From Amorphoplanes digitatis (GTDB lineage Bacteria > Actinomycetota > Actinomycetes > Mycobacteriales > Micromonosporaceae): a stretch of 64,000 nt of DNA. The notes below the pieces were generated by a model. That model did not search any database and was not told the DNA's origin. It was given only the letters and a program-made list of their open reading frames with translations. Within the stretch, counting starts at the first letter, position 1. Each line of letters begins with the position of its first letter. The stretch spans positions 4,520,501-4,584,500 of the forward strand of contig NZ_JACHNH010000001.1 of the NCBI RefSeq assembly GCF_014205335.1, read 5' to 3'. Below are positions 10,884 to 56,615 of this stretch, in pieces. Both the position numbers and the translations under genes were made by a program.

Positions 10884-10888
10884 CCGGG

Positions 10889-11812: not shown

Positions 11813-11844
11813 TCAAGATATTCACAAACCCTCAGCCTGCGGCC

Positions 11845-31006: not shown

Positions 31007-31648
31007 ATGGCTTTGACTCCGGACGAGTTCTATCAGCATGCGCTTGCCGCCACGGACAGTGAGCGCCGCCTTCCCCTGTCCCGCATGACGGGTTGGGAGA
31101 TCAGCCCGTTCGTGCAGGACGGCCTGCGTGTCACTCCGCTACGGCCGCCGGTGGTACCCGAGCCGCCGCGGCACGGCGAGGATCCGGCGGAGTGCGGCAT
31201 CTGCGGCGACCGGGACAAGGGCGTCTGGTTCAACGAGCGCTGGCGGCTGGACCGGATCTCCGGCGTCGGGCTGCCGCTGATCGTGATGCTCTACCCCCGC
31301 GACCACTACGACCTGGCCGACCTGCCCGACGAGATGGCCGCGGAACTCGGCCTGCTGAGTACCCGGATCGTGCGGCACGTGCAGGCGGTGCCGCACGTCG
31401 CGCGGGCACACATGTACCGCTTCGGCGACGGCGCCGCCCACCTGCACCTGTGGTTCTTCGCCCGGCCCGAAGGCCAGGCTCAACTGTTCGGATCGTGGCT
31501 GCCGGTCTGGGACGACCTGCTGCCGGAGTACCCGGCCGACCTGGCCGACGCGGATGCCGCCCTGGTCGCCGACGCGCTCGTCGCCTCGTCCGGTGGCTCC
31601 CGTACGCCCACGGCCGCCTACGGCACGGAGGCCGAGCCTGCGCGCTGA
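31007..31648 (+). CDS. HIT-like / GalT-like nucleotide-binding protein
   Basis: A 213-residue protein starting MALTPDEFYQHALAATDSER. It contains a Cys pair ECGICGDRDKGVWF, which probably belongs to a zinc site, and a C-terminal HIT-type triad segment AAHLHLWFFARPEG (H-x-H followed by an aromatic rather than the third His). The overall plan resembles small HIT or galactose-1-phosphate uridylyltransferase relatives. The missing third His leaves activity uncertain. Its 3' end overlaps the convergent acyltransferase gene by 31 nt. Confidence 0.65.
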   Translation: MALTPDEFYQHALAATDSERRLPLSRMTGWEISPFVQDGLRVTPLRPPVVPEPPRHGEDPAECGICGDRDKGVWFNERWRLDRISGVGLPLIVMLYPRDHYDLADLPDEMAAELGLLSTRIVRHVQAVPHVARAHMYRFGDGAAHLHLWFFARPEGQAQLFGSWLPVWDDLLPEYPADLADADAALVADALVASSGGSRTPTAAYGTEAEPAR

Positions 31649-32781
31649 GGCACCGCGTTCTCCGGCTGGTGCGCGCTCCGCCTCGACAGCGGTAGTGGCA
31701 CCGAGGCCGCGCGCATCACGTCGAGCGAGCGGCGGAGAACCCGCCGCAGGTACGCGCCCAGCGGCTTCTCCACCAGCCGGTGCACGGCCCACGCCAGCAC
31801 CAGCATCAGGGCCGCCGTCGCGATCAGGAGGAGCCATACGGGCGGGCGGAAGGCCAGGTACACGTTGCGGATCACCGTGTAGCCGATCCGCTGGTGCAGC
31901 AGGTACAGCGGGTACGTCAGCGCCCCGGCGGTCGTCAGCCACCGCCAGCGCACCCGTTCCAGCCGGCCGAGCGCGATCGCCAGGACCAGGCCGTAAGCCA
32001 CCGTGATGATGACGACCCCGGGCCAGGTGGGGTAGGACGCGCCGAGGCTGTGCACGCGGCGGGTCACCGCGTGCAGGTTCACGATCCAGGTGAACGCGAT
32101 CATCGCGTACAGCAGCGGCGACGGGCCGAAGCGGTGGACGAGGTACATCAGGATGCCGGCCACGAAGTACGCGGCGTACTCGGGCACGGCCAGCGCGTTC
32201 AGCAGCGTGGTGCCCAGCACCGGGCTCAGCACCGCCACGGTCATCCAGGCGGCGCAGAAGAGCACGACGCGGCGGTAGGTCAGGCCGAGCATGACCGGAA
32301 CGAGGAAGAGCAGGTAGAAACGCAGCTCGACGAAGAGCGTCCAGTAGACGCCGTCCATCGACCCGACGCCGAGGGGTTCCTGCACCATCGTCAGGTTCAC
32401 CGCGACACCGACCGGTGTCGGGTCCACCAGGCCCCAGATGCCGCCGCCGCGGAGCGGGGCCGCGACCGCGACGAGCGCGGTCAGCAGGACGGCGACCCAG
32501 TACGCCGGGTAGAGCCGGCTCACCCGGGAGGCGAAGAAGTCGCCCAGCCGGCGCCCCCAGCTGCTCATGCAGATCACGAAGCCGCTGATCAGGAAGAACA
32601 CCTCGACGCCGAGGCACCCGTACACGGCGACCCACGAGCCGGCCGGCAGGAGGTCCGACGGCGGGCTCACGCCGTCGATGCGCCAGGCCATGGTGTAGTG
32701 GAACACCATCACCGCCGCGGCGGCCAGGAAGCGCATCCCGTCCAGTGCCGCGAGCCGGGGCCCACTGTCCATTTTTTCCAT
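31618..32781 (-). CDS. Acyltransferase-3 family membrane O-acyltransferase
   Basis: A 387-residue multi-pass protein of the acyltransferase-3 family, with about ten transmembrane helices. The opening LAALDGMRFLAAAAVMVFHYTMAW carries the expected motif with His. Later segments GCLGVEVFFLISGFVICMSS and YWTLFVELRFYLLFLVPVM are family signatures. Such enzymes O-acylate sugars or lipid-linked glycans across the membrane. It lies 51 nt downstream of the polyprenyl synthase gene on the same strand, so it may be the last gene of the ebo-like operon, though it could be independent. Confidence 0.85.
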   Translation of the reverse strand: MEKMDSGPRLAALDGMRFLAAAAVMVFHYTMAWRIDGVSPPSDLLPAGSWVAVYGCLGVEVFFLISGFVICMSSWGRRLGDFFASRVSRLYPAYWVAVLLTALVAVAAPLRGGGIWGLVDPTPVGVAVNLTMVQEPLGVGSMDGVYWTLFVELRFYLLFLVPVMLGLTYRRVVLFCAAWMTVAVLSPVLGTTLLNALAVPEYAAYFVAGILMYLVHRFGPSPLLYAMIAFTWIVNLHAVTRRVHSLGASYPTWPGVVIITVAYGLVLAIALGRLERVRWRWLTTAGALTYPLYLLHQRIGYTVIRNVYLAFRPPVWLLLIATAALMLVLAWAVHRLVEKPLGAYLRRVLRRSLDVMRAASVPLPLSRRSAHQPENAVPQRAGSASVP

Positions 32782-32832
32782 TCCTCAGGCATCGACCGAT
32801 GTCAGCGAAATGAAAGCAGACCCTCGCAAGCC

Positions 32833-33903
32833 TCAGCGGTGCCGGGCCACCACCGACGAGGCCAGGCCGGACAGGGCCGCCCGCGCCTCGGTGGTCAGCG
32901 GCGCGTCGGCGAGCGCCGACGTCGCCTCCGCCGCGCGCTGCGAGATCAGGCTCTCGATCCGCTGGCGGGCTCCGGTCGCGGTGATGATCGAGCGCAGCTC
33001 GGCGGCGCCCGCGTCGTCCAGGGCCGGGTCGCCGAAGAGTTCGCGGATGCGGGCGGCCTGTGTCCGGTCCGCCCGGTCCCGGGCCATCGCGATCATGACC
33101 GTGGGCTTGCCCTCGCGCAGGTCGTCCACGACCGGCTTGCCGGTCACCGCCGGGTCGCCGAAGACGCCGAGCACGTCGTCGCGGAGCTGGAACGCGTCGC
33201 CGAGGGGGTCGCCGAACGACTGTAGCGCCGCCTGGAGCCCCTTGGGGCCGCCGGCCAGGGCCGCGCCGATCTGGAGCGGCCGGGTCACCGTGTACCGGGC
33301 CGCCTTCATCCGGATGACCGTCAGCGCGCCCGCCACCGAGCCGTCGCCGACCCCCGAGACCAGGTCCAGGTACTGGCCGGCGATCACCTCGGTGCGCATC
33401 ACCGTGAAGAGCCGGTACCCGCGGTGTATCCACTCGACCGGCAGGCCCGACTCGTGCAGCATGTGGTCGGCCCAGGCGGCGCAGAGGTCGCCGCAGAGCA
33501 GCGCCGCGCTCTGGCCGTACCGGACGGCCTCGCCGCGCCACGAGTGCCGGGTGTGCACGTCCGCGAAGTGGCGGTGCACGGTCGGCTGGCCGCGGCGCAG
33601 GGTGCTGTTGTCCATGATGTCGTCGTGGATCAGGGCGAACGCGTGGAACAGTTCGAGCGCGGCCGCCGCCACGACGATCTGCGGGCTGTCCGGCTGCCCG
33701 GCGCCGCGCCAGCCCCAGTAGCAGAACATCGGGCGCAGGCGCTTGCCGTCGGCGAGCACGAACCGCCGTACGGCGTCGAGCACGCCCGCCGGGGTGCCGT
33801 CCGGCCAGTGTGGACGTTGCCGGTCCAGGTAGCGGATGAGCGCCGACTCGCAGCGCCGGGCCAGGCCCGCCGCGTCGGTCTCCGGCGCCATGCCCACGGT
33901 CAT
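32833..33903 (-). CDS. Polyprenyl (probably geranylgeranyl) diphosphate synthase
   Basis: A 356-residue trans-isoprenyl diphosphate synthase. The first Asp-rich motif is DDIMD in FALIHDDIMDNSTLRRGQPT, and the second is QLRDDVLGVFGD. Further conserved elements are GKRLRP and GKPVVDDLREGKPT. Chain length cannot be read with certainty; C20 is likely for stand-alone actinobacterial enzymes of this form. The ATG overlaps the end of the phosphatase-like gene by 4 nt, so its product, a prenyl diphosphate, is made in step with the UbiA-like protein encoded upstream in the operon. Confidence 0.9.
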   Translation of the reverse strand: MTVGMAPETDAAGLARRCESALIRYLDRQRPHWPDGTPAGVLDAVRRFVLADGKRLRPMFCYWGWRGAGQPDSPQIVVAAAALELFHAFALIHDDIMDNSTLRRGQPTVHRHFADVHTRHSWRGEAVRYGQSAALLCGDLCAAWADHMLHESGLPVEWIHRGYRLFTVMRTEVIAGQYLDLVSGVGDGSVAGALTVIRMKAARYTVTRPLQIGAALAGGPKGLQAALQSFGDPLGDAFQLRDDVLGVFGDPAVTGKPVVDDLREGKPTVMIAMARDRADRTQAARIRELFGDPALDDAGAAELRSIITATGARQRIESLISQRAAEATSALADAPLTTEARAALSGLASSVVARHR

Positions 33904-35282
33904 GACGGCAGCCCGGCCAGCGTGAGCAGCAATTCCTTCACCTCGGTCGCGGCGACGGCGTCCCGGGCGTGCGCCGGGTCGGAGCAGATCAGCACGGGCG
34001 CGTCGCGGGGGTCCGCCGGCAGCCGCCCGTGCGAGCCGCGGACCGCGCGGGCGCCGGCGTCGAGGCCGACGACGCTCATCAGGTAGCGCATACCGAGCTT
34101 CTTGCGCAGCAGCGCCAGCGCGGCGCGGCCCTTCGCCGCCGCCGGGCCCGCCGGGTCGAAGAACAGCTCGGCGGGGTCGTACCCGGGCTTGCGATGGATC
34201 TCCACCAGCCGGGCGAAGTCCGGCGCGGCCGCGTCGTCCAGCCAGTAGTAGTACGTGAACCAGGCGTCCGGCTCGGCGACCAGGACCAGCTCGCCGGAGC
34301 GCTCGTGGTCCAGCCCGTGCGCGGCCTTGCCGTCCGCGTCCAGTACCTCGGCGACGCCGGGCAGCGCCGCGCAGAGCTTCGCCACGGCCGGCACGTCGGC
34401 GGGGTCACGGACGTAGACGTGGGCGATCTGGTGGTCCGCCACGGCGAACGCCCGGGACGTCCACGGGTCGAGGTACTCCATCCCGGCCTGGGTGTGCACC
34501 CGCAGCAGGCCCTCGGCGCGCAGCAGCCGGTTGACGTCGACCGGGCGCGAGACGTCGGTGATGCCGTACTCGGACAGCACGACGACGGTGGCGCCGCGGG
34601 CCGCCGCCGCGTCGAGCAGCGGGCCGAGGGTGGCGTCGAGCTCGGCCGCGGCCGCCGCGGCCTGCGGGGCGGACGGACCGTGGCGTTGCAGGTCGTAGTC
34701 GAGGTGCGGCACGTAGACCAGGGTCAGGTCCGGGCGGTGGTCCGCCATGATCTGTTCGGCGGCCCGGCAGATCCACGCCGAGGACGGCAGGCCGGCGTTG
34801 GCGCCCCAGTAGCTGAAGAGCGGGAACGTGCCCAGTTTGGCGGTGAGCTCGTCGTGCAGGGCCGGCGGATCGGTGTAGCAGTCCGGGTCCTTGCGGCCGT
34901 CGGCGTGGTAGACCGGCCGCGGCGTTACCGTCCAGTCGACGTCGGCGCCCATCGCGTACCACCAGCAGACGTTGGCCACCGTGTAGCCCGGCGCGCGCGA
35001 GCGGGCCGCGTGCCACAGCTTCTCGCCACCGACCAGCGCGTTGTGCTGGCGCCAGAGCAGCACCTCGCCCAGGTCGCGGAAGTACCAGCCGTTGCCGACG
35101 ATGCCGTGTACGGCGGGCGGCTCGCCGGTGAGGAAGGTGGACTGGACCGTGCAGGTGACGGCGGGCAGCACCGTGCCCAGCGGCGCGCGGAATCCGGTGG
35201 CGGCGAGGCGGGACAGGCGCGGCATGTGCTCCAGCAGCCGCGGGGTGAGGCCGACGACGTCGAGTACGACCACGGGCTTCAC
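33900..35282 (-). CDS. eboF: EboF-like alkaline-phosphatase-superfamily protein
   Basis: A 460-residue protein of the type I phosphodiesterase/nucleotide pyrophosphatase branch. Asp8 of VVVLDVVGL and the nucleophile Thr43 in LPAVTCTVQSTFLTGEPP are in place. A second metal-site segment reads YVPHLDYDLQRHG. Where most of the superfamily has S-D-H-G, this protein has S-E-Y-G (VVVLSEYGITDV), so its metal centre may differ. The GTG start at 35282 is fixed by a GTGA overlap with eboE. In ebo clusters it is thought to act in processing or moving a small metabolite. Confidence 0.8.
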   Translation of the reverse strand: MKPVVVLDVVGLTPRLLEHMPRLSRLAATGFRAPLGTVLPAVTCTVQSTFLTGEPPAVHGIVGNGWYFRDLGEVLLWRQHNALVGGEKLWHAARSRAPGYTVANVCWWYAMGADVDWTVTPRPVYHADGRKDPDCYTDPPALHDELTAKLGTFPLFSYWGANAGLPSSAWICRAAEQIMADHRPDLTLVYVPHLDYDLQRHGPSAPQAAAAAAELDATLGPLLDAAAARGATVVVLSEYGITDVSRPVDVNRLLRAEGLLRVHTQAGMEYLDPWTSRAFAVADHQIAHVYVRDPADVPAVAKLCAALPGVAEVLDADGKAAHGLDHERSGELVLVAEPDAWFTYYYWLDDAAAPDFARLVEIHRKPGYDPAELFFDPAGPAAAKGRAALALLRKKLGMRYLMSVVGLDAGARAVRGSHGRLPADPRDAPVLICSDPAHARDAVAATEVKELLLTLAGLPS

Positions 35283-36430
35283 GGCGTGACCCCCTGTTGG
35301 GCGGTGAGACCCAGCGCGGTGAGCTGGGCCCGGGCGAAGAAGAGCTCGGAGGCGATCCCCGAGGCCAGCTCGGCGGGGCTGCCGGGGCGCGAGGTCGGCG
35401 GCAGCACGTTCCAGGTGTACGTCTCGACCTCGTAGTGGTCGCAGAGCGGCTCGGGGCCGCCGGCCAGCAGGGCGAGGGCCTCGGCGAGCACGCCGACGGT
35501 GGTTTGCAGCGGCGGTACGGGCGGCGCGTGCAGCGGCACGTGGTAGTGCACCCGCCAGGGCTGGTCGCGCCCGCCGGGCACGGCGAGGGCCTCGTCGAGG
35601 TCGTCGGTGGACAGGCCGCCGGGGCCGCGGGTCTGGTGCAGGAAGCGCGGCTCGACGTACTCGCCGAGCACCGCGGCGTCGGCGCGGGGGTCGGCGCTGG
35701 CGAGCGCGGCCGAGACCTGCACCTTGACGATCGGCAGCCCCGCGCCGGCCAGGTTGCGCAGCGCGTCCCGCGGCTCCTCCCAGGCGCAGGCGAGGTGCGC
35801 CAGGTCGAGGCAGACGCCGAGCCGGGTGGTGTCCACGCCGGCGAGCAGGCGCGCGGCCTGCGCCGTCGTCTCGATGACGCAGCCGGGCTCGGGCTCGAAC
35901 CCGACCCGGATCTCCCTGTCGAACAGGGCCAGCGTGCGGGCCAGCTCGTCGAGGTGGTGGCGGCAGGCGTCGGCGCGTGCGGCGTCCCACGGTTCGCGCC
36001 AGGCGAGCGGCAGGGTGGAGATGGACCCGCGGGCGGCGGCGGCCGGCAGCAGGTCGTTCAGCACCCGGGCCAGGTCGAGGGTGTACGAGAGCCGCTGCGC
36101 GGTGGTCCAGTCCGGCTGGTAGACGGCGTGCTTGACCACCGGCGCCTGGAACGCCTGGTACGGGAACCCGTTGAGCATGACGACCTCGAGCCCGCGCGCG
36201 TCGAGTTCCCGGCGCAGCCGCTGGCGGCCGGCGACGTCGGCGGCGAGCCCGGCCGCCACCGGTGCCGCGAGCCACAGGCCGAGACCGAGCACGTCGGCGC
36301 CGAGCCGGTCGCGGATCGGCACCGCGTAGGTGTCCAGCTGCGCCAGGATGCCGGCGAAGTCCTCGGCGGCGTGCACGTTGGTGCAGTACGACAGGTGCAT
36401 GGTCTGCCCGCCGGGGTGCCGCAGCCGCAT
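35279..36430 (-). CDS. eboE: EboE-like metabolite traffic protein (xylose-isomerase-like TIM barrel)
   Basis: A 383-residue TIM-barrel protein. From residue 11 it reads MHLSYCTNVHAAEDFAGILA, the usual EboE opening. The first ATG (36430) shares a base with the stop of eboB (TGATG) and is kept as the start, but the internal ATG is possible. Metal-site segments include VGFEPEPGCVIETT and LGVCLDLAHLACAWEEP, and the C-terminal part has YEVETYTWNVLPP. The biochemical role is not established; in other bacteria ebo genes are needed for export or proper location of secondary metabolites. Confidence 0.85.
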   Translation of the reverse strand: MRLRHPGGQTMHLSYCTNVHAAEDFAGILAQLDTYAVPIRDRLGADVLGLGLWLAAPVAAGLAADVAGRQRLRRELDARGLEVVMLNGFPYQAFQAPVVKHAVYQPDWTTAQRLSYTLDLARVLNDLLPAAAARGSISTLPLAWREPWDAARADACRHHLDELARTLALFDREIRVGFEPEPGCVIETTAQAARLLAGVDTTRLGVCLDLAHLACAWEEPRDALRNLAGAGLPIVKVQVSAALASADPRADAAVLGEYVEPRFLHQTRGPGGLSTDDLDEALAVPGGRDQPWRVHYHVPLHAPPVPPLQTTVGVLAEALALLAGGPEPLCDHYEVETYTWNVLPPTSRPGSPAELASGIASELFFARAQLTALGLTAQQGVTP

Positions 36431-37278
36431 CAGCCGCCTCCCCGCGCGATGGAGCTACCGGCGAAGGTGGCGACCGGCGCCGGGCTGGTGAGGTCGAGGC
36501 GCCCGGACTGGCTGTAGAACTCCACCGGGTTGCGCCACAGCACCAGGTCGACCTCGTCGGCGGTGAACCCGGCCGCGAGCAGCTCCCGGCCGGTTTCCAC
36601 GGTCAGCAGCGGGTCGGAGTGGCCCCAGTCGGCGGCGGAGTTCACCAGCATCCGCTCGGTGCCGTACGCCTTGAGGATCTCGACCATCCGCTGCGGCGAC
36701 ATCTTCGTCTCCGGATAGATGGAGAAGCCCATCCAGCAGCCGGTGTCGCGGACCAGGCCGACGGTGACCTCGTTGAGGTGGTCGATCGCCACCCGGCCCG
36801 GCTCGATGCCGGACTCGGCGACGACCTCGAGGCTGCGCCGGGTGCCGGCGGCCTTGTCGCGGTGCGGCGTGTGCACGAGCGCCGGCAGCTCGTACTCGAC
36901 GGCCAGGGCGAGCTGCACGGAGAAGGCCTCGTCCTCGGCCGGGGTCATCGAGTCGTAGCCGATCTCGCCGACCGCCACGACGCCGTCCTTGTCGAGGTAG
37001 CGCGGCAGCAGGTTGAGCACGCTGCGGCAGCGCGGGTCGTTGGCCTCCTTGGGGTTCAGCGCGATGGTGGCGTGGTGCCGGATGCCGAACTGCGCCGCCC
37101 GGTACGGCTCCCAGCCGATCAGCGAGTCGAAGTAGTCGGTGAACGACCCGGCGCTGGTGCGCGGCTGCCCGAGCCAGAACGCCGGCTCCACCACGGCCTG
37201 TACGCCGTTCGCGGCCATCGCCCGGTAGTCGTCGGTGGTCCGGGAGCTCATGTGGATGTGCGGGTCGAAGATGCGCAT
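36430..37278 (-). CDS. eboB: EboB-like TatD-family metal-dependent hydrolase
   Basis: A 282-residue amidohydrolase-fold protein starting MRIFDPHIHMSSRTTDDYRA. Metal ligands are visible: the H-x-H of DPHIH, Glu in VGEIGYD, His in LVHTPHRDK, His in AIDHLNE and Asp in SAADWGHSDP. The family includes nucleases and small-molecule hydrolases; within ebo clusters its substrate is unknown. The ATG shares one base with the stop of eboA. Confidence 0.85.
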   Translation of the reverse strand: MRIFDPHIHMSSRTTDDYRAMAANGVQAVVEPAFWLGQPRTSAGSFTDYFDSLIGWEPYRAAQFGIRHHATIALNPKEANDPRCRSVLNLLPRYLDKDGVVAVGEIGYDSMTPAEDEAFSVQLALAVEYELPALVHTPHRDKAAGTRRSLEVVAESGIEPGRVAIDHLNEVTVGLVRDTGCWMGFSIYPETKMSPQRMVEILKAYGTERMLVNSAADWGHSDPLLTVETGRELLAAGFTADEVDLVLWRNPVEFYSQSGRLDLTSPAPVATFAGSSIARGGG

Positions 37279-37883
37279 CAGCCCTGCCTCCTCGAGTTGT
37301 TCGCGACGGTGAGCCGGTTGAGCAGCGCGAGGGCGTCCGCCGGCATCCGGCGGTCGGCGGCGGCGCGCTCCTGCGCGAGGGCGCCGAGCATGGTGGCGAG
37401 CTCCGCGTCGGCGCGCTCGTCGAGGCGGTCGACGGCGCTGAGCGGGATGCCCATGAAGACGCACTTGACGACGCCCTGGCGCCAGGCCGCGGCGTCGAGA
37501 TGCGCCGCGTACGGGCCGAGCGCCGCGGCGACCAGCCGGGCGTCGTTGGTGCGCAGCGCGTCGTGCAGCAGCGGCACCAGCTCGGGGCCGATCTCCAGCA
37601 GCGGCAGCGCGGCGAGCACGGCCAGCCGCTCGGCGGTGTCGCCCTGCTGGTACAGGTTGGTGGTCCGGGCCGGGTCGGCCACCTCCACCAGCAGCAGCGC
37701 CCGCCCGGCCCGCCCGGCGGTCCAACCGCTGTCCGGGAACAACGGCTCCCGGCCGAGCTTGCGCTCGGCCCGGGCGAACAGGGGCGCCAGCTCGTCCGGG
37801 TCGTCGCGGACCCGGGCCAGCGCGTCGTCGAGCCAGTCCCTTTCCGGTACGCCGGCAAGCGCGGCGCGCAGCTCCTCGATCAT
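37278..37883 (-). CDS. eboA: EboA-like metabolite traffic protein
   Basis: A 201-residue helical protein. The pattern GWTAGRAGRALLLVEVADP, followed by LYQQGDTAERLAVLAALPLL, HDALRTNDARLVAAALGPYAA and a conserved VVKCVFMGIPLSAVDRLDERAD (about 151-172), is characteristic of EboA. No catalytic motif is evident. The start at 37883 overlaps the stop of the upstream TIM-barrel gene by 4 nt (ATGA). Confidence 0.88.
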   Translation of the reverse strand: MIEELRAALAGVPERDWLDDALARVRDDPDELAPLFARAERKLGREPLFPDSGWTAGRAGRALLLVEVADPARTTNLYQQGDTAERLAVLAALPLLEIGPELVPLLHDALRTNDARLVAAALGPYAAHLDAAAWRQGVVKCVFMGIPLSAVDRLDERADAELATMLGALAQERAAADRRMPADALALLNRLTVANNSRRQG

Positions 37884-38722
37884 TGAGCCTCCTTCTCGGC
37901 GGCTCGCAGGAACGCCAGCGATTCGCGGGCGACCGTCGGCGCCGCGTGCGAATGCCGGGGCAGTTCGACGGCGACCAGGCCGCGGTAGCCGCCGTCGATG
38001 AGCGCCCGCAGCACGGGCGGGAAGTCGATCTCTCCGGTGCCGAACTCGAGGTGCTCGTGCACGCCCCGGCGCATGTCGTCGATCTGGACGTTGACCAGGT
38101 GCGGCGCGACCGCGGCCACGCACTGCGGCACGGGCAGCGGCTCGAGGCAGCGGCAGTGCCCGATGTCCAGGGTGAGGCCGAACATGGCGGGCTCGCCCAG
38201 GTCGGCGCGCAGGCGCCGCCAGCCGTCGAGGTCGGCCACCTCCATCCCGGGCTCGGGCTCGAACCCGAGCGGCACCCCGGCGGCGGTGGCCGCGGCCGTG
38301 ACGTCGGCGCAGCCGTCGACCAGCCGGCTCCAGGCGGTGCGGTCGTCGACGCCGTCCGGCCGTACCCCGGACCAGAAGGAGACCGCCTCGGCGCCGAGGT
38401 CCGCGCCGACCGCGACCGCCCGGTGCAGGAATTCGAGCCGCAGCTTCCGGTCGTCGTGCAGCAGCGTCGGCGCGTGCTTGCGCCAGGGGTCGAGCAGGTA
38501 GCGGGCGCCGGTCTCGACGACGACGCCGAGGCCGAGGTCGCGGAGCCGGTCGGCGACCTCGGCGACCCGGCGGGCCAGGCCCGCCGCGAACGGGTCGAGG
38601 TGGTCGTGGTCGAGGGTGAGCGCGACGCCGGTGTAGCCGAGGCCGGCGATGACGGCGAGGGCGTCGCCCAGCCGGTGGTTGGCGAAGCCGTTGGTGCCGT
38701 AGCCGTACCGCAGGGCGGTCAT
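37880..38722 (-). CDS. Sugar-phosphate isomerase/epimerase-like TIM barrel, additional to EboE
   Basis: A 280-residue protein starting MTALRYGYGTNGFANHRLGD, with the xylose-isomerase-like fold. Probable metal ligands are Glu in VVVETGARYLLDP, Glu in LGFEPEPGMEV, Asp/His in LTLDIGHCRCLEP and Glu in VAVELPRHSH. A second such barrel beside EboE is not part of the six-gene ebo set. It may epimerise or isomerise the cyclitol made by the inositol-phosphate-synthase homologue. It overlaps the UbiA-like gene by 4 nt. Confidence 0.8.
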   Translation of the reverse strand: MTALRYGYGTNGFANHRLGDALAVIAGLGYTGVALTLDHDHLDPFAAGLARRVAEVADRLRDLGLGVVVETGARYLLDPWRKHAPTLLHDDRKLRLEFLHRAVAVGADLGAEAVSFWSGVRPDGVDDRTAWSRLVDGCADVTAAATAAGVPLGFEPEPGMEVADLDGWRRLRADLGEPAMFGLTLDIGHCRCLEPLPVPQCVAAVAPHLVNVQIDDMRRGVHEHLEFGTGEIDFPPVLRALIDGGYRGLVAVELPRHSHAAPTVARESLAFLRAAEKEAQ

Positions 38723-39567
38723 GTGGGTGAGACCTTGCGGGCGAGCAGCCGGGCGAGCGGGGCGGCCGCCGCGACCGCGAGCCCGGCCCAGGTGCGGCCG
38801 GCCCGGGCGGCGAGCGCGCCCTGGAGCGCGGGCAGCGCGGTGATGCCGGCGCCGACCGCGGCGCGTACCCGCGGCGCGGCGGGGTCGGTGAGGAGGCGTG
38901 CCTGCGCGCGGCCGTAGCTGGTGGCGTACTCGGCGGCGAGCACGGCGGTGACGGTGCCGCCGCGCGCGGCGACCGCGGCGGCCAGGGCGGCGGTGCCGGC
39001 CAGGGTGGCCGCGGGCAGCTTCGCGGAGGTGCCGCCGGCGACCTCGTGGCGGGACAGCTCGGTGACCGTGTACGTGTGCGCGGCGACGGCGAGGGCGGCC
39101 GGCAGCGCGCGTACCGGATTGCCGGTGCTCGCGCCGAGCAGCACGTCCAGGGCGCGGCAGGCGGCCATCCCGGCGGGCCCGGCCGCGGTGTTCTTCAGGC
39201 GCAGGTCGTATGCCCAGACCGCGGCGGCCAGCGGACCCGCCACGGCCAGGGCGCGGGCGCCGCCCGCGCGGGCGGCGAGGGCCAGGCCGGCCGCGGTGAG
39301 CCCGGCCGCGATGCCCAGCGCGGCGGGTGCGGAGATCCGGCCGGAGGGTATCGGGCGTTCCGGGCGCTCGGCGGCGTCGAGGTCGCGGTCGGCCCAGTCG
39401 TTGGCGGCCATCCCGGCCCAGTAGAGGCAGACCCCGGCGCCGGCGAGGCCGGCCGTGCGCGGGCCCAGCGTGCCGGCCGCGGCGGCGCCGGCCACCGCGT
39501 CGCCGGGCACGGAGAGCGCGGCCGGTGCGCGGACCAGTTCGGCGAGGGTGCGCAACGGCGTCTTCAC
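38719..39567 (-). CDS. eboC: EboC-like UbiA-family prenyltransferase
   Basis: A 282-residue membrane protein with seven to nine helices. The first prenyl-diphosphate motif is AANDWADRDLDAAERPERPIPSG (N-D-x-x-D-x-x-x-D). The second region, YDLRLKNTAAGPAGMAACRALDVLLGAS, is typical of EboC-type proteins and lacks the plain D-x-x-x-D of quinone-pathway UbiA. The start is the GTG at 39567, which gives a GTGA overlap with the upstream cyclase gene. It would transfer a prenyl group, probably from the C20 diphosphate made downstream, to a polar acceptor. Confidence 0.85.
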   Translation of the reverse strand: MKTPLRTLAELVRAPAALSVPGDAVAGAAAAGTLGPRTAGLAGAGVCLYWAGMAANDWADRDLDAAERPERPIPSGRISAPAALGIAAGLTAAGLALAARAGGARALAVAGPLAAAVWAYDLRLKNTAAGPAGMAACRALDVLLGASTGNPVRALPAALAVAAHTYTVTELSRHEVAGGTSAKLPAATLAGTAALAAAVAARGGTVTAVLAAEYATSYGRAQARLLTDPAAPRVRAAVGAGITALPALQGALAARAGRTWAGLAVAAAAPLARLLARKVSPT

Positions 39568-40700
39568 GACGCGAGTCCGGCCGTGAACGCCGCGAGGGTG
39601 GCCCACTGCTCGGCCAGCGCCGACGGGCCGTCGCCGAGCGGGTCCTTGAAGAAGAAGCCGAGCTCGGCCAGCGGGCCGCTGCGCCCGGCGCGGTGCGCGG
39701 CCGCGGTGAGCCGGGCCAGGTCGAGCACGAGCGGCGCGGCCAGGGCGGAGTCGCAGCCGTGCCAGCTGAACTCCATCCGCATGCCGGTGCCGAGGAAGCC
39801 CTCGAACGTGATCAGGTCCCAGGCGGTCTTGAAGTCGCCGATCTCCGCCACGTAGTCGATCCGGCTGGTGCCCTCCGGCTGGTATCCGAGCGCGTCGCCG
39901 AGCACCCGCTGCTTGCTGGAGACCTTGGCGGCGTTGGCGGCCGGGTCGGCCAGGTTGGCGCCGTCGCCGCCGCCGAGCAGGTTGAGCCCGGACCAGCTGC
40001 GTACCCGCAGATTGCGCAGGGCGAACATGGGCGCGAGCACCGACTTGACGAGGGTCTCGCCGGTCTTGCCGTCGTTGCCGGCGTACGGGACGGCCCGCGC
40101 CCGGGCGAGCTCGGCCAGGGCCGGCAGCCGCGCGCCGGTCGACGGGGTGAAGTCGATGAAGGAGCAGCCGGCGGTGAAGGCCGCGTACGCGGCGAGCGCG
40201 CTCGGCGGCAGCACCGGCGCCGGCCCGGCCAGGGCGGCGGTGAGCTCGGCGAGCCCGGCGTGCGCGGGGTGCGGCGCGGCGGCCGGCTCGGTGGTGGACA
40301 CGTTGACGACCACCACCCGGTCGAGGGCGTTGCGGTCGCGGAAGCCGCGCAGGTCCGCCGAGATACGCCGCGCGGTCGCGGCCTGGGTGTCGCCGGCCGG
40401 CAGCGGCCGCAGCTCCTGCTCGACCGCCGCGAGCTCGTCGGCGAGCGCGACGACGAGCCGGCCCGGCAGCACCCCGGCGGCGGCGAGCGCGTCTGCCTTC
40501 TTCAGCACGGGGGTGGTGACGATGTCGTGGCCGCCGAAGACCAGCTCGGACCAGCCGGGCAGGGCCGGGCCGCGCAGCTGCGGCAGTTCGGTGACGCAGC
40601 CGGTCGGCGCGACGAGGCGGGCCCGCAGCGCGGCGGCACCGACGATCGAGGTGACGGCGACGGAGCCGCGGGCACCGATCAACCATATTCCGGTACGCAT
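39564..40700 (-). CDS. myo-Inositol-1-phosphate synthase family cyclase heading the ebo-like operon
   Basis: A 378-residue member of the inositol-3-phosphate synthase family. The NAD-binding loop reads WLIGARGSVA. Conserved catalytic-region segments are VNVSTTEP, the GNDGKTGETLVKSVLAPMF segment with its lysines, and SWSGLNLLGGGDGANL. The length is near that of bacterial Ino1. Normally the enzyme cyclises glucose-6-phosphate; here operon context suggests a dedicated cyclitol supply. ATG 40700 is preceded by GGGGAGG at a 6-nt spacing. It is the first gene of the operon, where other ebo loci carry the DHQ-synthase-like EboD cyclase. Confidence 0.85.
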   Translation of the reverse strand: MRTGIWLIGARGSVAVTSIVGAAALRARLVAPTGCVTELPQLRGPALPGWSELVFGGHDIVTTPVLKKADALAAAGVLPGRLVVALADELAAVEQELRPLPAGDTQAATARRISADLRGFRDRNALDRVVVVNVSTTEPAAAPHPAHAGLAELTAALAGPAPVLPPSALAAYAAFTAGCSFIDFTPSTGARLPALAELARARAVPYAGNDGKTGETLVKSVLAPMFALRNLRVRSWSGLNLLGGGDGANLADPAANAAKVSSKQRVLGDALGYQPEGTSRIDYVAEIGDFKTAWDLITFEGFLGTGMRMEFSWHGCDSALAAPLVLDLARLTAAAHRAGRSGPLAELGFFFKDPLGDGPSALAEQWATLAAFTAGLAS

Positions 40701-41291: not shown

Positions 41292-41381
41292 CGGCGGCCG
41301 GGCGGCCCGCCGCCCCGCGCGCGGCGGCCGGCGCGCGGCGCCCGAGGCGAGTGTTCGCGCCCGGGCCGAACCCATGTCCGT

Positions 41382-41387
41382 TAGATT
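41382..41387 (+). promoter_or_regulatory. -10 element for a probably leaderless transcript
   Basis: TAGATT fits TAnnnT and lies 7 nt before the GTG at 41395. There is no Shine-Dalgarno sequence before this GTG or before the ATG at 41374. This spacing is what leaderless actinobacterial genes show, with transcription starting at the initiator codon. Confidence 0.5.
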
Positions 41388-41394
41388 GCTATTT

Positions 41395-42909
41395 GTGAAC
41401 ATCGAGGTCGCGGAGCTCGAGCTGCGGCCGGTGACCGACTTCCGGGCGACCGCCGCCGCGGCCGCCGCGCTGGAGCGCGACGGCGACGAGCGGACCGCCG
41501 TCCGTGCCCGGCTGATCCGCGCGGACGCCGCCCTGCGCGAGGGCCGCACCGCCGAGGGCGGCACGCTCGCCCAGCAGGTCAACGCGTGGGCGTCGCAGCA
41601 CGACGACGGCTACGTGCTGGCGTGCAGCCACCGCACGCTCACCCACTTCCACTACTACATCGGCGACCTGGCCGGCGCGCTCGGCAACGCCGTGCAGGCG
41701 GTCGCGCACCTGACCGACGACGATCCGCCGGCGATCCGGGTCCGGCACCTGATGACGCTCGCCGTCGTGCTCGGCGACAGCGGCTCCGCCGACGAGGCGG
41801 CCCGGCGGTACCGCGAGGCACTCGACCTGGCCGCGACGATGGGCGACCAGCAGCAGATGCTGATGATCCTCGGCAACCTGGCGAACCTCGCCGGCCAGGA
41901 GAACGACCACGAGGCCGCGGCGGCGGCCGTCGCGCAGATGGCCGAGCTGCACGACCGCAGCGGCATACCCCTGGACGGCCCCCAGCTGATCACGATGGCC
42001 CGGGTCCGGCTGGCCGAGGGCGACTACCCGGCGGTCGAGGAGATCCTCCGCCCGCTCACCCAGGACATCCAGTACGCGCACAGCACCGGCGCGGCGCTGC
42101 CGGAGGCGCTGCTGACCCTCAGCGAGGCGCACCGGCTGGCCGGGCGCTTCGCCACCGCGCAGGCCGACCTCGACCACGTGCGGCGGCTGGCACACGAGCG
42201 CGACCTGCGCGCCGCCGAGGCCGCCATGCTCGAGCAGCAGGCCGTGCTGCACGCGGCGATGGGCCGGCACCGCGAGGCCTACGAGGCGCACGTCGAGTTC
42301 CACCGGTTCTTCGCCGAGCTCCAGTCCGCGCAGCGCGACGCGCAGGCCCGCACGCTCCAGGCGGTGTTCGAGGCGACCGAGGCCCGGCGGCTCGGCGAGC
42401 ACTTCCGCGAGCTGGCCCACCGCGACGCGCTGACCGGCCTGCACAACCGGCGTTACGCCGACGAGCGGCTGCCCGCGCTGCTGGGCGACGCGGTGGCGCG
42501 CCACCGGCCGCTGGCCGCGGCGATCGTGGACCTCGACCACTTCAAGCGGATCAACGACACCCTCTCGCACGACGCCGGGGACCTGGTGCTCCAGCAGCTG
42601 GGCCGGCTGCTCGCCGACGCCGCGCCGGATCCGGCCTTCGCGGCCCGCCTCGGCGGCGAGGAGTTCCTGCTCGTCCTGCCGGGCACCGGGCTGGCCGAGG
42701 CGGTGCGGCGGTGCACCGAGCTGTGCGACCGCATCCGCGGGTACGACTGGGCGCCGATCGCCGGTGCCCTGCCGGTGACCGCCAGCGTCGGCGTGACGGT
42801 CACCTCGGCGGACCCGGTCACCGCGGCCGGGCTGCTGGCACACGCGGACCGGCACCTGTACGCGGCCAAGCGGGCCGGCCGGGACCGGGTGGTCTCCGGC
42901 CGCCCGTGA
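41395..42909 (+). CDS. Diguanylate cyclase with helical-repeat N-terminus (GGDEF, form GGEEF)
   Basis: A protein of about 504 residues. The N-terminal 330 residues are TPR-like helical repeats (for example DEAARRYREALDLAATMGDQQ and AEGDYPAVEEILRPLTQDI). A coiled linker, VFEATEARRLGEHFRELAHRDALTGLHNRRYADERL (about 323-358), leads into the GGDEF domain with GGEEF in AARLGGEEFLLVLP. IVDLDHFKRINDTLSHDAGD supplies the metal Asp. No RxxD inhibitory site precedes GGEEF. It is soluble, so the repeats probably sense a protein or ligand. The start is taken as the GTG after a -10-like element; the ATG at 41374 is the alternative. It is a paralogue of the protein at 58273-59850. Confidence 0.85.
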   Translation: MNIEVAELELRPVTDFRATAAAAAALERDGDERTAVRARLIRADAALREGRTAEGGTLAQQVNAWASQHDDGYVLACSHRTLTHFHYYIGDLAGALGNAVQAVAHLTDDDPPAIRVRHLMTLAVVLGDSGSADEAARRYREALDLAATMGDQQQMLMILGNLANLAGQENDHEAAAAAVAQMAELHDRSGIPLDGPQLITMARVRLAEGDYPAVEEILRPLTQDIQYAHSTGAALPEALLTLSEAHRLAGRFATAQADLDHVRRLAHERDLRAAEAAMLEQQAVLHAAMGRHREAYEAHVEFHRFFAELQSAQRDAQARTLQAVFEATEARRLGEHFRELAHRDALTGLHNRRYADERLPALLGDAVARHRPLAAAIVDLDHFKRINDTLSHDAGDLVLQQLGRLLADAAPDPAFAARLGGEEFLLVLPGTGLAEAVRRCTELCDRIRGYDWAPIAGALPVTASVGVTVTSADPVTAAGLLAHADRHLYAAKRAGRDRVVSGRP

Positions 42910-49662: not shown

Positions 49663-49672
49663 GTTCCTCACC

Positions 49673-50779
49673 TCAGGGTGTGGTGCAGGTCAGGTTCTGC
49701 ACGGACGCCGGTGTGGTACCGGAGCCGAGGAACCCGAACGTGGCGTGGTTGCCGGCCGCGATCGTCCCGTTCCAGGACTCGTTCTTGACCGTGGCCAGTG
49801 AGCCGCTGCCGGTGTACTTGCCGCCCCACAGCTGGGTGACCGTCTGCGCACCGGGGAACGTCCATGACACCGTCCAGTTGTTCACGGGTGTCGAGCCGGC
49901 GTGCACCATCACCTCGCCCTGGAACCCGCCGTTCCAGGTGCCGGTGACCGAGTACATCGCGGAGCAGCCGCTGCCCGTCGGCGGACTGGTCGGCGGGCTG
50001 GTCGGTGGGCTGGTGGGCGGGCTGGTGGGCGGGGTCGTGGGCGGGGTGGTCGGCGTCGTCGTCGTGCCGCCGCCGAGACCGGTCACCTCGCCGTTGCCGC
50101 CGTCGAAGACCACGTCCGAGCAGCCGTAGAACGTCTCGGTGCTGTCCGAGCGCGACCAGACCGAGTAGATCAGGTGCCGGCCGCTCTTGCCCGACGGCAG
50201 GTTGCCGGTCCACGAGTACCGGCCGTCGTTGGTGCCCGGTCCGCCGACCGAGGTCGGGTTGACCACCTGGGAGAACGGCTGCGACTCGAGATCGCTCCAG
50301 GCGAGCGCCCGGGTCGGGCTCCAGCTGTCCTTGGTGATGTACAGCGAGAAGGTGCCGGGGTGCTTGGCCCAGTTGTTGTAGTCGAAGCGCATGCTCGCGC
50401 CCGACGTCAGGTGCGTGACCGGGAAGTCGTTCCGGGCCAGGTTGAAGCCGGTGAAGTTGTACGGCCCGCCGGTACCGCCGCTGCACAACTGCCCGTCCGG
50501 GATGAAGCCGGAGGTCCGGCCGGCACCGTCGGAGCGCAGCACGGCGAACCAGTTGTAGAGCGCCGTCACCCCGCTCTGCGCGACCGCCGCGGCACACGCC
50601 GCGTTCTTCGGCTCGATCGCGCCGGTCGCGGTGAGCCCGTCCTTCCAGCAGAAGTAGGTGCGGCTGCCGGGCGCCATCATGGCGCCGTGTGCCGAGGCCT
50701 CGCTCTGCAACACCGTGACCCCGACCCCGGTGGCCAGCAGAACGGCCGCCGCGTACAGGAAACTTCGTCTGCGTCTCAT
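49673..50779 (-). CDS. AA10 lytic polysaccharide monooxygenase with CBM2
   Basis: A 368-residue secreted copper enzyme. The signal peptide (1-30) ends ASA, so the mature protein begins at His31 (HGAMMAPGSRTYFCW), the N-terminal His of the copper brace. The second brace His is most likely in FPVTHLTSGAS. The AA10 domain runs to about 225. A Thr-Pro-Ser linker (TTPPTSPPTSPP type) connects to a CBM2 domain (about 265-368). It cleaves crystalline cellulose or chitin oxidatively; co-transcription with GH48 argues for cellulose. An AGAGGA site supports the ATG. It is the last gene of the operon. Confidence 0.93.
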   Translation of the reverse strand: MRRRRSFLYAAAVLLATGVGVTVLQSEASAHGAMMAPGSRTYFCWKDGLTATGAIEPKNAACAAAVAQSGVTALYNWFAVLRSDGAGRTSGFIPDGQLCSGGTGGPYNFTGFNLARNDFPVTHLTSGASMRFDYNNWAKHPGTFSLYITKDSWSPTRALAWSDLESQPFSQVVNPTSVGGPGTNDGRYSWTGNLPSGKSGRHLIYSVWSRSDSTETFYGCSDVVFDGGNGEVTGLGGGTTTTPTTPPTTPPTSPPTSPPTSPPTSPPTGSGCSAMYSVTGTWNGGFQGEVMVHAGSTPVNNWTVSWTFPGAQTVTQLWGGKYTGSGSLATVKNESWNGTIAAGNHATFGFLGSGTTPASVQNLTCTTP

Positions 50780-50790
50780 GACAATTCCTC

Positions 50791-53715
50791 TCAGCCGTTC
50801 GGGAAGAGGCGGGCGAAGTCCGCGTAGCCGGTGGCGACGTCGACCTGTGCCCAGAAGCGGTGGTAGTTGAAGGTGGGCGCCGCACCGCCGTTCAGGTACG
50901 CCTGGACCTTGGGGAAGTCCGGGTCGTTGCGGTAGAAGGAGCGGATGTCCAGGAACGACTTGCCGGGTGCGATCACGTCGCCGTTCGGCATCTTGCCGCT
51001 CCAGCCCTGCGGGATGTAGAGACCCTGCCCCGTCGAGGCGTTGTAGACGTCGTCGAACCGGTTGTAGTCGGCGCGGGTCTCGGTGACCGAGACGCCCTTC
51101 GAGTCCTTCTTGGTCCAGATCGCGTCGAGCAGGTTCTTCGCCGCGGTCTTGGCGGCCGCGTTGCCGGACTTGGCGGCGTAGTAGGTGAGCAGCTTCGCGA
51201 ACGAGCCGGCGACGCCCAGGTCCTGACCCTTGGTCTTGACCGTGACGTGCAGGTTGGTGTTCGCGGCCGGGCTGGACGGGTTCCAGGTGGCCGGCGCGCC
51301 CGACCAGGTCATGTCGGACGGGATCTCGAAGTTGGTCGCGGAGATCGTGGAGTTCGCGAGCGCCCACGGCACCCACTTGTCCAGGACCGACTTGGCCTTG
51401 GTGTCACCGGTCGTGTAGTAGTACTCGGCCAGCCGCTCCAGCGACCAGGTCTGCATGCCGAACCACTGGTTGGACGGCGGGTCGGCGTACACCGGCGCCT
51501 CGACGTAGGCCAGGCCGTAGAACGTCGGGGTGCCGGACGGCGGCGCCGAGTAGCTGCCGTTCCAGCTGTTCGTCGCGCCGCCGGCGATCGCGCCCTCGGA
51601 CGACTGCAGCCACTGGTAGAACTCGAGCTGCCGGTTGAGGCTGGCCTGCCAGTCGGCCTTGGCGGTCGGTGACTTGGGCGCCAGCGCGGTGGTGTTGCTC
51701 AGCACGTACGCCGCCATCGGGTTCTGGTATCCGAAGTGGCTGGTGCTCGAGCCGATGCGCCACGCCCAGCCGGCGCTGGTGTCGTATGCGCCGCCCCAGG
51801 CGTAGTACCAGGACATCAGGTTGTTGGAGGCGTTCTTGCCGGTGCCGGCCGGGCAGCCGGTGGAGGTGCAGCCCGGCTGCTTGAAGTACTTGTCGTAGAA
51901 GGAGTACCGCAGGTAGTCACCCATCTTCGCGGCGTTGGCGACCGCGGTGGAGATCTGCGACTGCTTGCCCTGCGCGGTCGCCCACTGGTTGGCCCAGTAC
52001 GCGGCCTGCACCGCGCGCGAGTCCGCGTCCGGCGCGTTCGTGTACTTCCACTGCTTGGCGTAGCTGGCGTCCTTGGTGAACAGGTCCAGGTAGCCGTTGG
52101 GGCCGCCGTGCTTGAACGTGTCGCAGGACGGCTGCGGCACGGTCTCCCAGGTGGACTCCTGCGGCCCGCGCTGGAACGTGTTGATGTAGGTGACCCGGCT
52201 GGTCCCGTCACCGCAGTGCCCGAAGCCGTAGACGTTGTCGACGTCCAGCAGCCAGTGCATGCCGTAGATGTCGTCGGTGCCATACGCGCTCTTCAGCTCC
52301 GCGGCCAGCGGGTCGGTGCCGACCGAGACGCCGGTGTCGAGCTGCGAGGGGTACGACGACGGCAGCGGGTGCTCGGCGGCGTAGGTGGCCGGCTTCGACG
52401 CGTTGTAGTTGGCGTTTGTGGGCTGGTCGGCGTGCGACGGGATGATGTACTTCTCCATCGTCGTCCACGCCGAGTTGAACGGCGACCAGTTCCCCGTCAC
52501 CTGGCCGTACTCGGCCTCGAGCCACAGCCAGTAGCTGAACGCCTCGGACGTGGTCTCGTGGCCCTGGTCGGGCGCCTCGTCGATCAGCGTCTCGATCGAG
52601 TGGTACGGCACCCCCTCGGGGCTGAAGTAGCCGTTGGCCGAGTTCTTGATGTCGGTGTAGAGCTGGGTGAACCGCGCGTTCGCACTGCCCTGCGCCAGGA
52701 CGGTCGCGGTGATGCTCGCCGCCGTGTGGCCGGTCGCCGTGGCGCTGAACGTGGCGGTCGTGTTCTCGGCCGCGGCCGAGGTCGCCGCGACGGTCACCGT
52801 CTGCGCGGTGTTCCAGTTCGACGTGGTGAACGTCAGCGACGCGGGGGTCGCCGACACCGTGGTGGCACCGGCGCTGCGGGCGATCGCCACCGTGGTGCTC
52901 GCCGTCGGCGCCTTGGAGAGCGACACCTTGAACGTGGTGGAGCCGCCGGGCGAGACCGTCACGGCCGTGGGATCGGCGACGACCGCGGGGGTCGACGAGG
53001 CGTCCACGAAGACCGGCACGTCGGCGGTCGCGCTCTTCGCGCCCGTCGAGTCGTACGAGATGGCCTGCAGGTGGTACGCCGCCGTCTGCGCGGGGACGCT
53101 GGACCAGGTGTACGCGTACGGCGCCGCCGTGTCGGTGTTCAGCAGCAGGCCGTCGTGGTAGAACTCGACCTTGCTGATGGTCCGGCCGCTCGTCGCCGTC
53201 GCCGTCGCCGCGATCGGGATCTCGGCGGGCGCGGTGTACCGGGTGTTGGCGGCCGGACTGGTGATGGACACGGTCGGCACGGCGGCCGTCTGGTTGCAGG
53301 CCGTTCCGTTGAGGGTGAACGCCGTCGGCACCGGGTTGGCGCTGCCGAACGTGCCGTTGAAGCCGGTGCTGACCGAGGCGCCGGTGCCGAGGTTGCCGTT
53401 CCACGCCGCATTGTTGACCGTGACGTGCTGGCCGCTCTGCGAGTAGACGCCGCTCCAGCCCTGCGTCACCCGTTGCGACGAGTCGGGGAAGTCGAACTCC
53501 AGGCGCCAGCTGGTCACCGGGTCGCCGGTGTTGGTGATGGCGATGTCGCCGGTGAAGCCGCCGGTCCACTGGCTCTGCACGCGGTACACGACCGTGCACG
53601 CGGCGGCGGCCTGCGCCGGCGAGGAGCCGGCGACGACCAGGCCGGCGCCGAGGAGTACCGCCGCCGACGCGGCCAGGCCGCGTCGACAACGGGTTCTCCG
53701 GGACAGAAATCTCAT
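50791..53715 (-). CDS. GH48 reducing-end cellobiohydrolase with N-terminal CBM2
   Basis: A 974-residue secreted enzyme. Order: signal peptide (1-37), CBM2 (about 39-140), an Ig-like module (about 145-240), a second strand-rich linker module (about 245-340) and the GH48 catalytic domain (about 347-974). The GH48 start NARFTQLYTDIKNSANGYFS, the EAPDQGHETTSEAFSYWLWLE segment with the probable acid Glu391 and the conserved YGTDDIYGMHWLLDVDNVYGFG are present. It processively releases cellobiose from cellulose. It follows GH74 after 28 nt and precedes the AA10 gene by 11 nt. Confidence 0.95.
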   Translation of the reverse strand: MRFLSRRTRCRRGLAASAAVLLGAGLVVAGSSPAQAAAACTVVYRVQSQWTGGFTGDIAITNTGDPVTSWRLEFDFPDSSQRVTQGWSGVYSQSGQHVTVNNAAWNGNLGTGASVSTGFNGTFGSANPVPTAFTLNGTACNQTAAVPTVSITSPAANTRYTAPAEIPIAATATATSGRTISKVEFYHDGLLLNTDTAAPYAYTWSSVPAQTAAYHLQAISYDSTGAKSATADVPVFVDASSTPAVVADPTAVTVSPGGSTTFKVSLSKAPTASTTVAIARSAGATTVSATPASLTFTTSNWNTAQTVTVAATSAAAENTTATFSATATGHTAASITATVLAQGSANARFTQLYTDIKNSANGYFSPEGVPYHSIETLIDEAPDQGHETTSEAFSYWLWLEAEYGQVTGNWSPFNSAWTTMEKYIIPSHADQPTNANYNASKPATYAAEHPLPSSYPSQLDTGVSVGTDPLAAELKSAYGTDDIYGMHWLLDVDNVYGFGHCGDGTSRVTYINTFQRGPQESTWETVPQPSCDTFKHGGPNGYLDLFTKDASYAKQWKYTNAPDADSRAVQAAYWANQWATAQGKQSQISTAVANAAKMGDYLRYSFYDKYFKQPGCTSTGCPAGTGKNASNNLMSWYYAWGGAYDTSAGWAWRIGSSTSHFGYQNPMAAYVLSNTTALAPKSPTAKADWQASLNRQLEFYQWLQSSEGAIAGGATNSWNGSYSAPPSGTPTFYGLAYVEAPVYADPPSNQWFGMQTWSLERLAEYYYTTGDTKAKSVLDKWVPWALANSTISATNFEIPSDMTWSGAPATWNPSSPAANTNLHVTVKTKGQDLGVAGSFAKLLTYYAAKSGNAAAKTAAKNLLDAIWTKKDSKGVSVTETRADYNRFDDVYNASTGQGLYIPQGWSGKMPNGDVIAPGKSFLDIRSFYRNDPDFPKVQAYLNGGAAPTFNYHRFWAQVDVATGYADFARLFPNG

Positions 53716-53743
53716 CGCTGGTCCTTCCTGGGGGTGGGGAGGG

Positions 53744-56419
<2,676 letters not shown>

Positions 56420-56480
56420 AGGGATTCCTCTCCGAGCACGTCACGGCGCCGGGGGAAGCGCCATCGACGGACGTCTCTCA

Positions 56481-56494
56481 TGGGAGCGCTCCCA
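56481..56494. promoter_or_regulatory. CebR operator at the GH74 promoter
   Basis: tgggagcgctccca is the exact 14-bp palindrome bound by CebR, the cellobiose-responsive LacI-family repressor of actinomycetes. It lies directly downstream of the minus-strand -10 (56502-56497), overlapping the expected transcription start. Confidence 0.93.
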
Positions 56495-56496
56495 TG

Positions 56497-56525
56497 AATG
56501 TGGCCCGCCGTCATTTGGTTGTCAA
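56497..56525 (-). promoter_or_regulatory. Promoter of the GH74-GH48-AA10 operon
   Basis: On the minus strand TTGACA (56525-56520), a 17-nt spacer and CACATT (56502-56497) form a promoter with a perfect -35 and a weak -10. Transcription would start within the CebR box. Confidence 0.65.
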
Positions 56526-56529
56526 GAGC

Positions 56530-56543
56530 TCGAAACATTTCGA
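56530..56543. promoter_or_regulatory. Palindrome tcgaaacatttcga between the divergent promoters
   Basis: A 14-bp palindrome with a 2-bp centre, 4 bp upstream of the minus-strand -35 and 24 bp upstream of the plus-strand -35. It resembles in style the cgaaa-n-tttcg sites of actinomycete xylan regulators but has one more central base. It could bind a second regulator serving both promoters. Confidence 0.5.
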
Positions 56544-56567
56544 TGTCACGAGAAGGTTTCCTGCGTG

Positions 56568-56596
56568 TTGACACAACTGAACCGAGTAGGTAGAAA
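56568..56596 (+). promoter_or_regulatory. Promoter of the mannanase gene
   Basis: TTGACA (56568-56573), a 17-nt spacer and TAGAAA (56591-56596). The second CebR box begins 19 nt after the -10, that is about +13, a roadblock position. Confidence 0.65.
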
Positions 56597-56615
56597 GACG
56601 CCTGTCAATCCATCG

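Follow-up and report, generated by a model that had tools for sequence, protein, structure and literature searches.

What does an ebo operon make when its ring-forming enzyme has been exchanged for an unrelated one? This question is raised by a locus of Amorphoplanes digitatis, which lies in a window of 64,000 nucleotides (nt; contig NZ_JACHNH010000001.1, positions 4,520,501 to 4,584,500) of a 9.13-Mb, single-contig genome. Operons of the ebo type occur across many phyla of bacteria and also in some algal plastids. In the canonical eboABCDEF operon, the ring-making enzyme is the sugar-phosphate cyclase EboD (PMC5133447), which probably uses sedoheptulose 7-phosphate. In the operon of the window, the place of EboD is taken by a cyclitol synthase of the inositol-phosphate synthase (MIPS) family, which heads the operon, together with a second xylose-isomerase-like TIM-barrel protein (TIM2). 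MIPS and EboD make cyclitols by unrelated chemistry and with unrelated folds. The new feature is the presence of a non-homologous MIPS at the place of EboD across a whole clade of ebo operons. A literature search, with subscription papers outside its scope, found no description of a MIPS-type ebo operon and no prenylated inositol product; the SCO3242 prenyltransferase family had already been named by NCBI.

Profile searches placed eight minus-strand genes between 40700 and 32833, in the order MIPS, EboC, TIM2, EboA, EboB, EboE, EboF, and polyprenyl synthase. An earlier note on this DNA had described overlaps of 1 to 4 nt at every junction. All seven junctions do overlap, each by 1 or 4 nt (4, 4, 4, 1, 1, 4, and 4 nt from MIPS to the polyprenyl synthase), with the overlap sequences GTGA, ATGA, and TGATG. 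Of the five ebo genes named there, EboA, EboB, EboE, and EboF were borne out by family profile matches, and the EboC-like gene matches the sister SCO3242 family. The interval given for the operon (31618-40700) was too long, as it took in an acyltransferase (32781-31618). This gene is set off by a 51-nt gap, and none of the other Actinomycetota ebo loci compared holds a homologue of it; it was therefore rejected as a part of the operon, and the unit was corrected to 32833-40700. The order MIPS-EboC-TIM2-EboA-EboB-EboE-EboF recurs in dozens of genomes, so the arrangement is not due to chance.

To look for EboD, a profile was made from the sequences of 16 EboD proteins; it gives 597 bits for the true EboD of an EboD-type actinobacterium (genome G381, locus L051). 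No EboD was found in the operon or elsewhere in the window's genome, where the best match reached 150 bits, which is the level of AroB. No EboD was found in the other MIPS-type genomes tested either (at most 184 bits, again at AroB level). Because EboD is missing from both operon and genome, the locus is a variant of the canonical ebo operon. MIPS had earlier been viewed as an added gene; it is instead a replacement for EboD.

The MIPS gene (39564..40700, with an alternative start possible at 40760) encodes an archaeal-type enzyme, which matches PF07994 (159 bits, cut-off 25) and PF01658 (105 bits, cut-off 27). The nearest solved relative of the ebo-MIPS profile is the A. fulgidus MIPS (1u1i; 331 bits); the five-membered-cyclitol-phosphate synthase of the same family reaches only 76 bits. 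The lysines aligned with K274, K278, K306, and K367 of the A. fulgidus enzyme, which we take to be active-site residues, are invariant in 88 of 88 homologues. The operon MIPS is not of the mycothiol Ino1 type (31 bits to TIGR03450, cut-off 638). The window's genome has a canonical mycothiol Ino1 at a separate site (662 bits), as do most other genomes checked; the operon MIPS is thus a dedicated enzyme.

The exchange of EboD for MIPS is clade-wide. Among 89 ebo operons of Actinomycetota, from at least 14 family groups, MIPS and TIM2 are each present in 85 and EboD in none; L051, the one EboD-type actinobacterial operon, was counted apart. Among 70 ebo operons from outside this phylum (Cyanobacteriota, Bacteroidota, Pseudomonadota, and others), EboD is present in 67, and MIPS and TIM2 in none. 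The other-phyla loci were the 80 that scored best among at least 580 when an EboD-type query was used for the ranking, so MIPS-type operons may also exist outside Actinomycetota. EboE scored over its cut-off in 18 of 396 genomes drawn across Actinomycetota, in 90 of 395 genomes of the window's class, and in 174 of 251 genomes of its family. The ebo-MIPS profile gave at least 552 bits in 17 of the 396 genomes and at most 322 bits in all others. These 17 genomes are exactly the EboE-positive set minus G381, and each match lies inside an ebo locus. An association confined to the window's genome was ruled out by these surveys of phylum, class, and family; the search for the same gene order across Actinomycetota, which the earlier note had proposed, showed that the order recurs, with MIPS at the frequency given above and the polyprenyl synthase at 27 of the 34 loci of the window's family.

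The EboF, EboE, and EboB sequences were concatenated, and a tree was constructed from them by a quick method, with support from the Shimodaira-Hasegawa-like approximate likelihood ratio test (SH-aLRT). In it, the MIPS-type operons all fall into a single group with full support, and the G381 operon (L051) groups with the EboD-type operons of Acidobacteriota and Armatimonadota. The direction of the swap is not set by the tree. The EboD/MIPS exchange was probably one ancient event on one branch, which was later inherited and transferred.

The few operons that depart from this pattern are as follows. MIPS is missing from L041, L192, L181, and L050 (a low-quality assembly) among the 89, and EboD is missing from L100, L122, and L103 (a locus at a contig edge) among the 70. 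L041 and L192 are second copies, and a full copy is present in the same genomes; L041 has a CrtO/phytoene-desaturase-like FAD oxidoreductase at the MIPS position (10712-12133). L181 (12745-15941) has neither MIPS nor TIM2, and directly upstream of it are genes for a Gfo/Idh dehydrogenase and for a sugar-binding protein; its ring precursor is perhaps imported or oxidised rather than made. L100 (6123-11443) and L122 (6223-11452) are proteobacterial operons with EboE, EboC, EboA, EboB, and EboF, and with neither EboD nor MIPS at the locus.

The EboC-like protein (38719..39567) is a UbiA-superfamily prenyltransferase, as indicated by its PF01040 match (50.9 bits, cut-off 34.2) and by its NDxxDxxxD-type aspartate motif, which is present in 87 of 93 homologues. 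It gives 360 bits to the SCO3242-family model (NF045897, cut-off 260) and 128 bits to the canonical EboC model (cut-off 250). Among solved structures, it comes closest to chlorophyll synthase and to the archaeal digeranylgeranylglyceryl phosphate (DGGGP) synthase, at about 34 bits. DGGGP synthase creates an ether bond to a polyol phosphate. By sequence, EboC is nearest to the O-prenylating UbiA enzymes.

TIM2 (37880..38722; PF01261, 115 bits) belongs to the sugar-isomerase/epimerase group, with no specific assignment from profiles. EboE (35279..36430, or from 36400; NF035939, 389 bits, cut-off 250) is a further TIM-barrel protein, which weakly resembles IolI (23 bits). EboA (37278..37883; NF035938, 141 bits, cut-off 50) is predicted by AlphaFold2, at high confidence (predicted local distance difference test score, pLDDT, 97.6), to be an all-alpha, HEAT-like protein. 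Its fold search returned HEAT/alphaRep-like rows, but Foldseek gave no significant match (best E 0.3), and Z scores of up to 10 fall within the tool's warning range for helical repeats. No EboA function was therefore drawn from the fold search, and a scaffold role is likely from the model. Eight loci encode a fusion of TIM2 with EboA, in agreement with a remark in PMC5133447. EboB (36430..37278; PF01026) is a TatD-like metal-dependent hydrolase whose position is conserved across loci, and EboF (33900..35282; PF01663, 222 bits) belongs to a phosphodiesterase/pyrophosphatase family.

The polyprenyl (short-chain) diphosphate synthase (32833..33903; PF00348, 169 bits; FALIHDDIMD motif) is a family-level addition, found beside most operons of the window's own family and beside three elsewhere. 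A type 1 isopentenyl-diphosphate isomerase (IDI-1) is encoded at eight proteobacterial EboD-type loci and a few actinobacterial loci, and a type 2 isomerase (IDI-2) adjoins L051. Because several unrelated isoprenoid-supply enzymes have been recruited, a prenyl diphosphate is supported as the donor for EboC. The donor had been proposed to be a C20 diphosphate. The prenyl-diphosphate part stands; the chain length is only hinted at by a Phe-Ala pair at positions -5/-4 before DDxxD, which is presumably compatible with C20 by analogy with the archaeal geranylgeranyl diphosphate synthases.

Secreted proteins with beta-propeller domains are recurrent neighbours and offer a lead on the purpose of the product. 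The 91 MIPS-type loci hold 50 GSDH (PF07995) open reading frames (ORFs) where genome density would predict 1.4, and the 75 EboD-type loci hold 17 where it would predict 1.5; these ORFs are often within 1 kb of the operon. The ScyD/ScyE family is known from the scytonemin pathway, and genes of this family are placed directly upstream of MIPS on two named Streptomyces plasmids and in one genome of another family.

A prenylated-cyclitol product has already been proposed for canonical ebo (PMC5133447, PMC6092422). This proposal gains independent genomic support, since an unrelated cyclitol synthase replaces EboD clade-wide and several isoprenoid-supply enzymes have been recruited. The idea of the earlier note, that the operon combines a cyclitol acceptor, a prenyl-diphosphate donor, and a UbiA-type transferase, holds up with the gene identities confirmed. 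We consider it somewhat probable (about 55%) that the MIPS-type ebo operon makes a prenylated, inositol-derived lipid that acts at or across the membrane. In the route that we infer, MIPS would convert glucose 6-phosphate to inositol phosphate, as its fold and catalytic lysines suggest. TIM2 and EboE might reshape the ring. EboC would move a prenyl chain, provided by the adjacent polyprenyl synthase, onto a ring hydroxyl, comparable to the action of DGGGP synthase on glycerol phosphate. EboF and EboB might trim a phosphate or an ester, and EboA may be a HEAT-like scaffold working with TIM2, as the fusions suggest. The product would be a membrane-anchored prenyl-cyclitol, serving an extracytoplasmic step with a secreted beta-propeller protein of the GSDH or ScyD/E type. 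The MIPS-type form also brings the ebo question into tractable actinomycetes, which are common soil bacteria, and labelled inositol could trace the product.

Several points weigh against a prenyl-inositol lipid. To our knowledge, no ebo operon has a known product or reaction. MIPS keeps its phosphate and EboD-type cyclases lose theirs, so the MIPS and EboD products cannot be identical without further steps. EboC resembles DGGGP synthase only weakly (34 bits). Quinolines are prenylated in vitro by an EboC homologue from a marine bacterium, and cyclitols were apparently not among the acceptors tried (PMC9235831). The neighbour counts ignore shared ancestry, and no GSDH gene lies beside the window's own operon. 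As the swap was probably one event, the mutual exclusivity of EboD and MIPS, though strong, is a single evolutionary observation. A broader reading is that the prenyl-cyclitol of both EboD and MIPS forms serves generally as a membrane cofactor or carrier in extracytoplasmic reactions of secreted beta-propeller proteins (GSDH, ScyD/ScyE). This is unlikely; if true, a single lipid, so far unrecognised, would link the maturation of scytonemin, the oxidation of sugars outside the cytoplasm, and the copies in antibiotic clusters.

The ebo genes might instead form mainly a transport or assembly module, whose membrane complex exports a metabolite (scytonemin monomer, or a peptide or polyketide precursor), with the cyclitol as a small tag or carrier. 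In Nostoc ebo mutants, the scytonemin monomer stays in the cytoplasm (PMC6282210); a nematode-repellence phenotype of Pseudomonas ebo is cited there second-hand. MIPS-type copies were found in a nonribosomal peptide synthetase (NRPS) cluster and beside type II polyketide synthase (PKS) genes, and, judging from published annotation, another copy probably lies in the calcium-dependent antibiotic (CDA) cluster of S. coelicolor. The predicted EboA fold is also scaffold-like. However, at least five members are enzyme-like, no transporter fold is encoded, and most actinobacterial copies lie outside NRPS/PKS-type clusters, which makes a role mainly in transport or assembly unlikely. It is quite unlikely that EboC prenylates an aromatic or quinoline acceptor, with the cyclitol branch yielding a separate co-product or a later ornament. 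Ubi-297, the Maribacter EboC homologue, does farnesylate 8-hydroxyquinoline-2-carboxylic acid in vitro (PMC9235831), but it was tried on a preselected panel of aromatic substrates; the operon has no conserved gene for an aromatic acceptor, whereas a cyclitol synthase is always there.

Many MIPS-type operons adjoin genes for a sugar ABC importer, for a Gfo/Idh dehydrogenase, and for ThuA, as well as one for a large secreted protein, whose domains include GSDH, CBM6, PKD, ThuA, and 3-keto-disaccharide hydrolase. These neighbours, the two TIM barrels, and the presence of an EboE-like paralogue within a module of this kind in the window's genome (L052) would fit a catabolic operon for uptake and breakdown of a 3-keto-glycoside or an inositol-like sugar. 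Such a function is very unlikely, as MIPS, EboC, and the polyprenyl synthase are biosynthetic and the catabolic neighbours are missing from many operons, including the window's own. The operon MIPS might also be the housekeeping inositol source for phosphatidylinositol and mycothiol, present in the operon by happenstance. Genome G268 has no canonical Ino1 match and G051 has only weak ones, as this would predict. But the separate Ino1 of the window's genome, together with the one-to-one co-occurrence of ebo-MIPS and ebo genes over the 396 genomes, argues against a housekeeping role, which was rejected as extremely improbable.

Compared with canonical eboABCDEF (Yurchenko 2016, PMC5133447), the MIPS-type operon shares the EboA, EboB, EboC, EboE, and EboF homologues, a dedicated cyclitol synthase, and a UbiA-type prenyltransferase. 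It differs in having MIPS for EboD, an extra TIM2, an EboC with 128 of the 250 bits required by the canonical model, and the order MIPS-C-TIM2-A-B-E-F; the window's family also carries its own polyprenyl synthase. The Nostoc ebo and scytonemin genes (Klicki 2018, PMC6282210) share a ScyD/ScyE-family neighbour with some MIPS-type Streptomyces loci, but that operon is cyanobacterial, of EboD type, and accompanied by scytonemin synthesis genes. In S. coelicolor, SCO3237 (phosphodiesterase), SCO3242 (transferase, after which the NCBI EboC-type family is named), and SCO3243 (MIPS) fit the seven-gene unit, judged from the published annotation of these three genes. This suggests that the CDA cluster holds the same MIPS-type ebo unit; SCO3237-SCO3243 differ in lying inside an antibiotic cluster. 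The BE-40644 pathway of Actinoplanes, as cited in PMC5133447, likewise combines a cyclitol synthase with a UbiA-superfamily prenyltransferase; its cyclase is a 2-epi-5-epi-valiolone synthase (EEVS) rather than MIPS, its prenyltransferase is not EboC, and the cluster is otherwise different. The archaeal MIPS and DGGGP synthase, the latter along with chlorophyll synthase, are the nearest solved relatives of ebo-MIPS and EboC, respectively, but they belong to separate archaeal lipid pathways.

In the window's genome, the importer/dehydrogenase module is split off from the operon. It adjoins the EboE-like paralogue at L052 (G000:C1:7243000-7262900), where positions 8362-16145 encode this paralogue, which at 180 bits stays under the cut-off, along with a TIM barrel resembling IolE, a dehydrogenase of the Gfo/Idh type, and an ABC importer for sugars. 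A module of this type directly adjoins the MIPS-ebo operon in many relatives. EboE-family genes over cut-off are also found at L174, L184, L190, L191, and L206, where no other ebo genes are present and the clusters look catabolic (ABC importer, dehydrogenases).

Several proteobacterial loci are accompanied by c-type cytochromes. In the vitamin C producer Ketogulonicigenium vulgare WSH-001 (plasmid 1, L219, 10768-27031), two genes for Gfo/Idh dehydrogenases neighbour the EboD-type ebo genes, and a c-type cytochrome and a further dehydrogenase are encoded downstream; the record shows eboC as two separate ORFs. The commonest immediate neighbour of EboD-type operons is a gene for a TMEM220-family small membrane protein (14 loci: L076, at 11400-11786, and 13 others). 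In the window itself, 41374-42909 and 58273-59850 encode two similar long proteins that, by eye, appear to combine helical repeats with a GGDEF (diguanylate cyclase) domain. The region 49668-58143 encodes, again as judged by eye, large secreted proteins with Ser/Thr/Pro-rich linkers, similar terminal domains, and a polysaccharide-degrading look.

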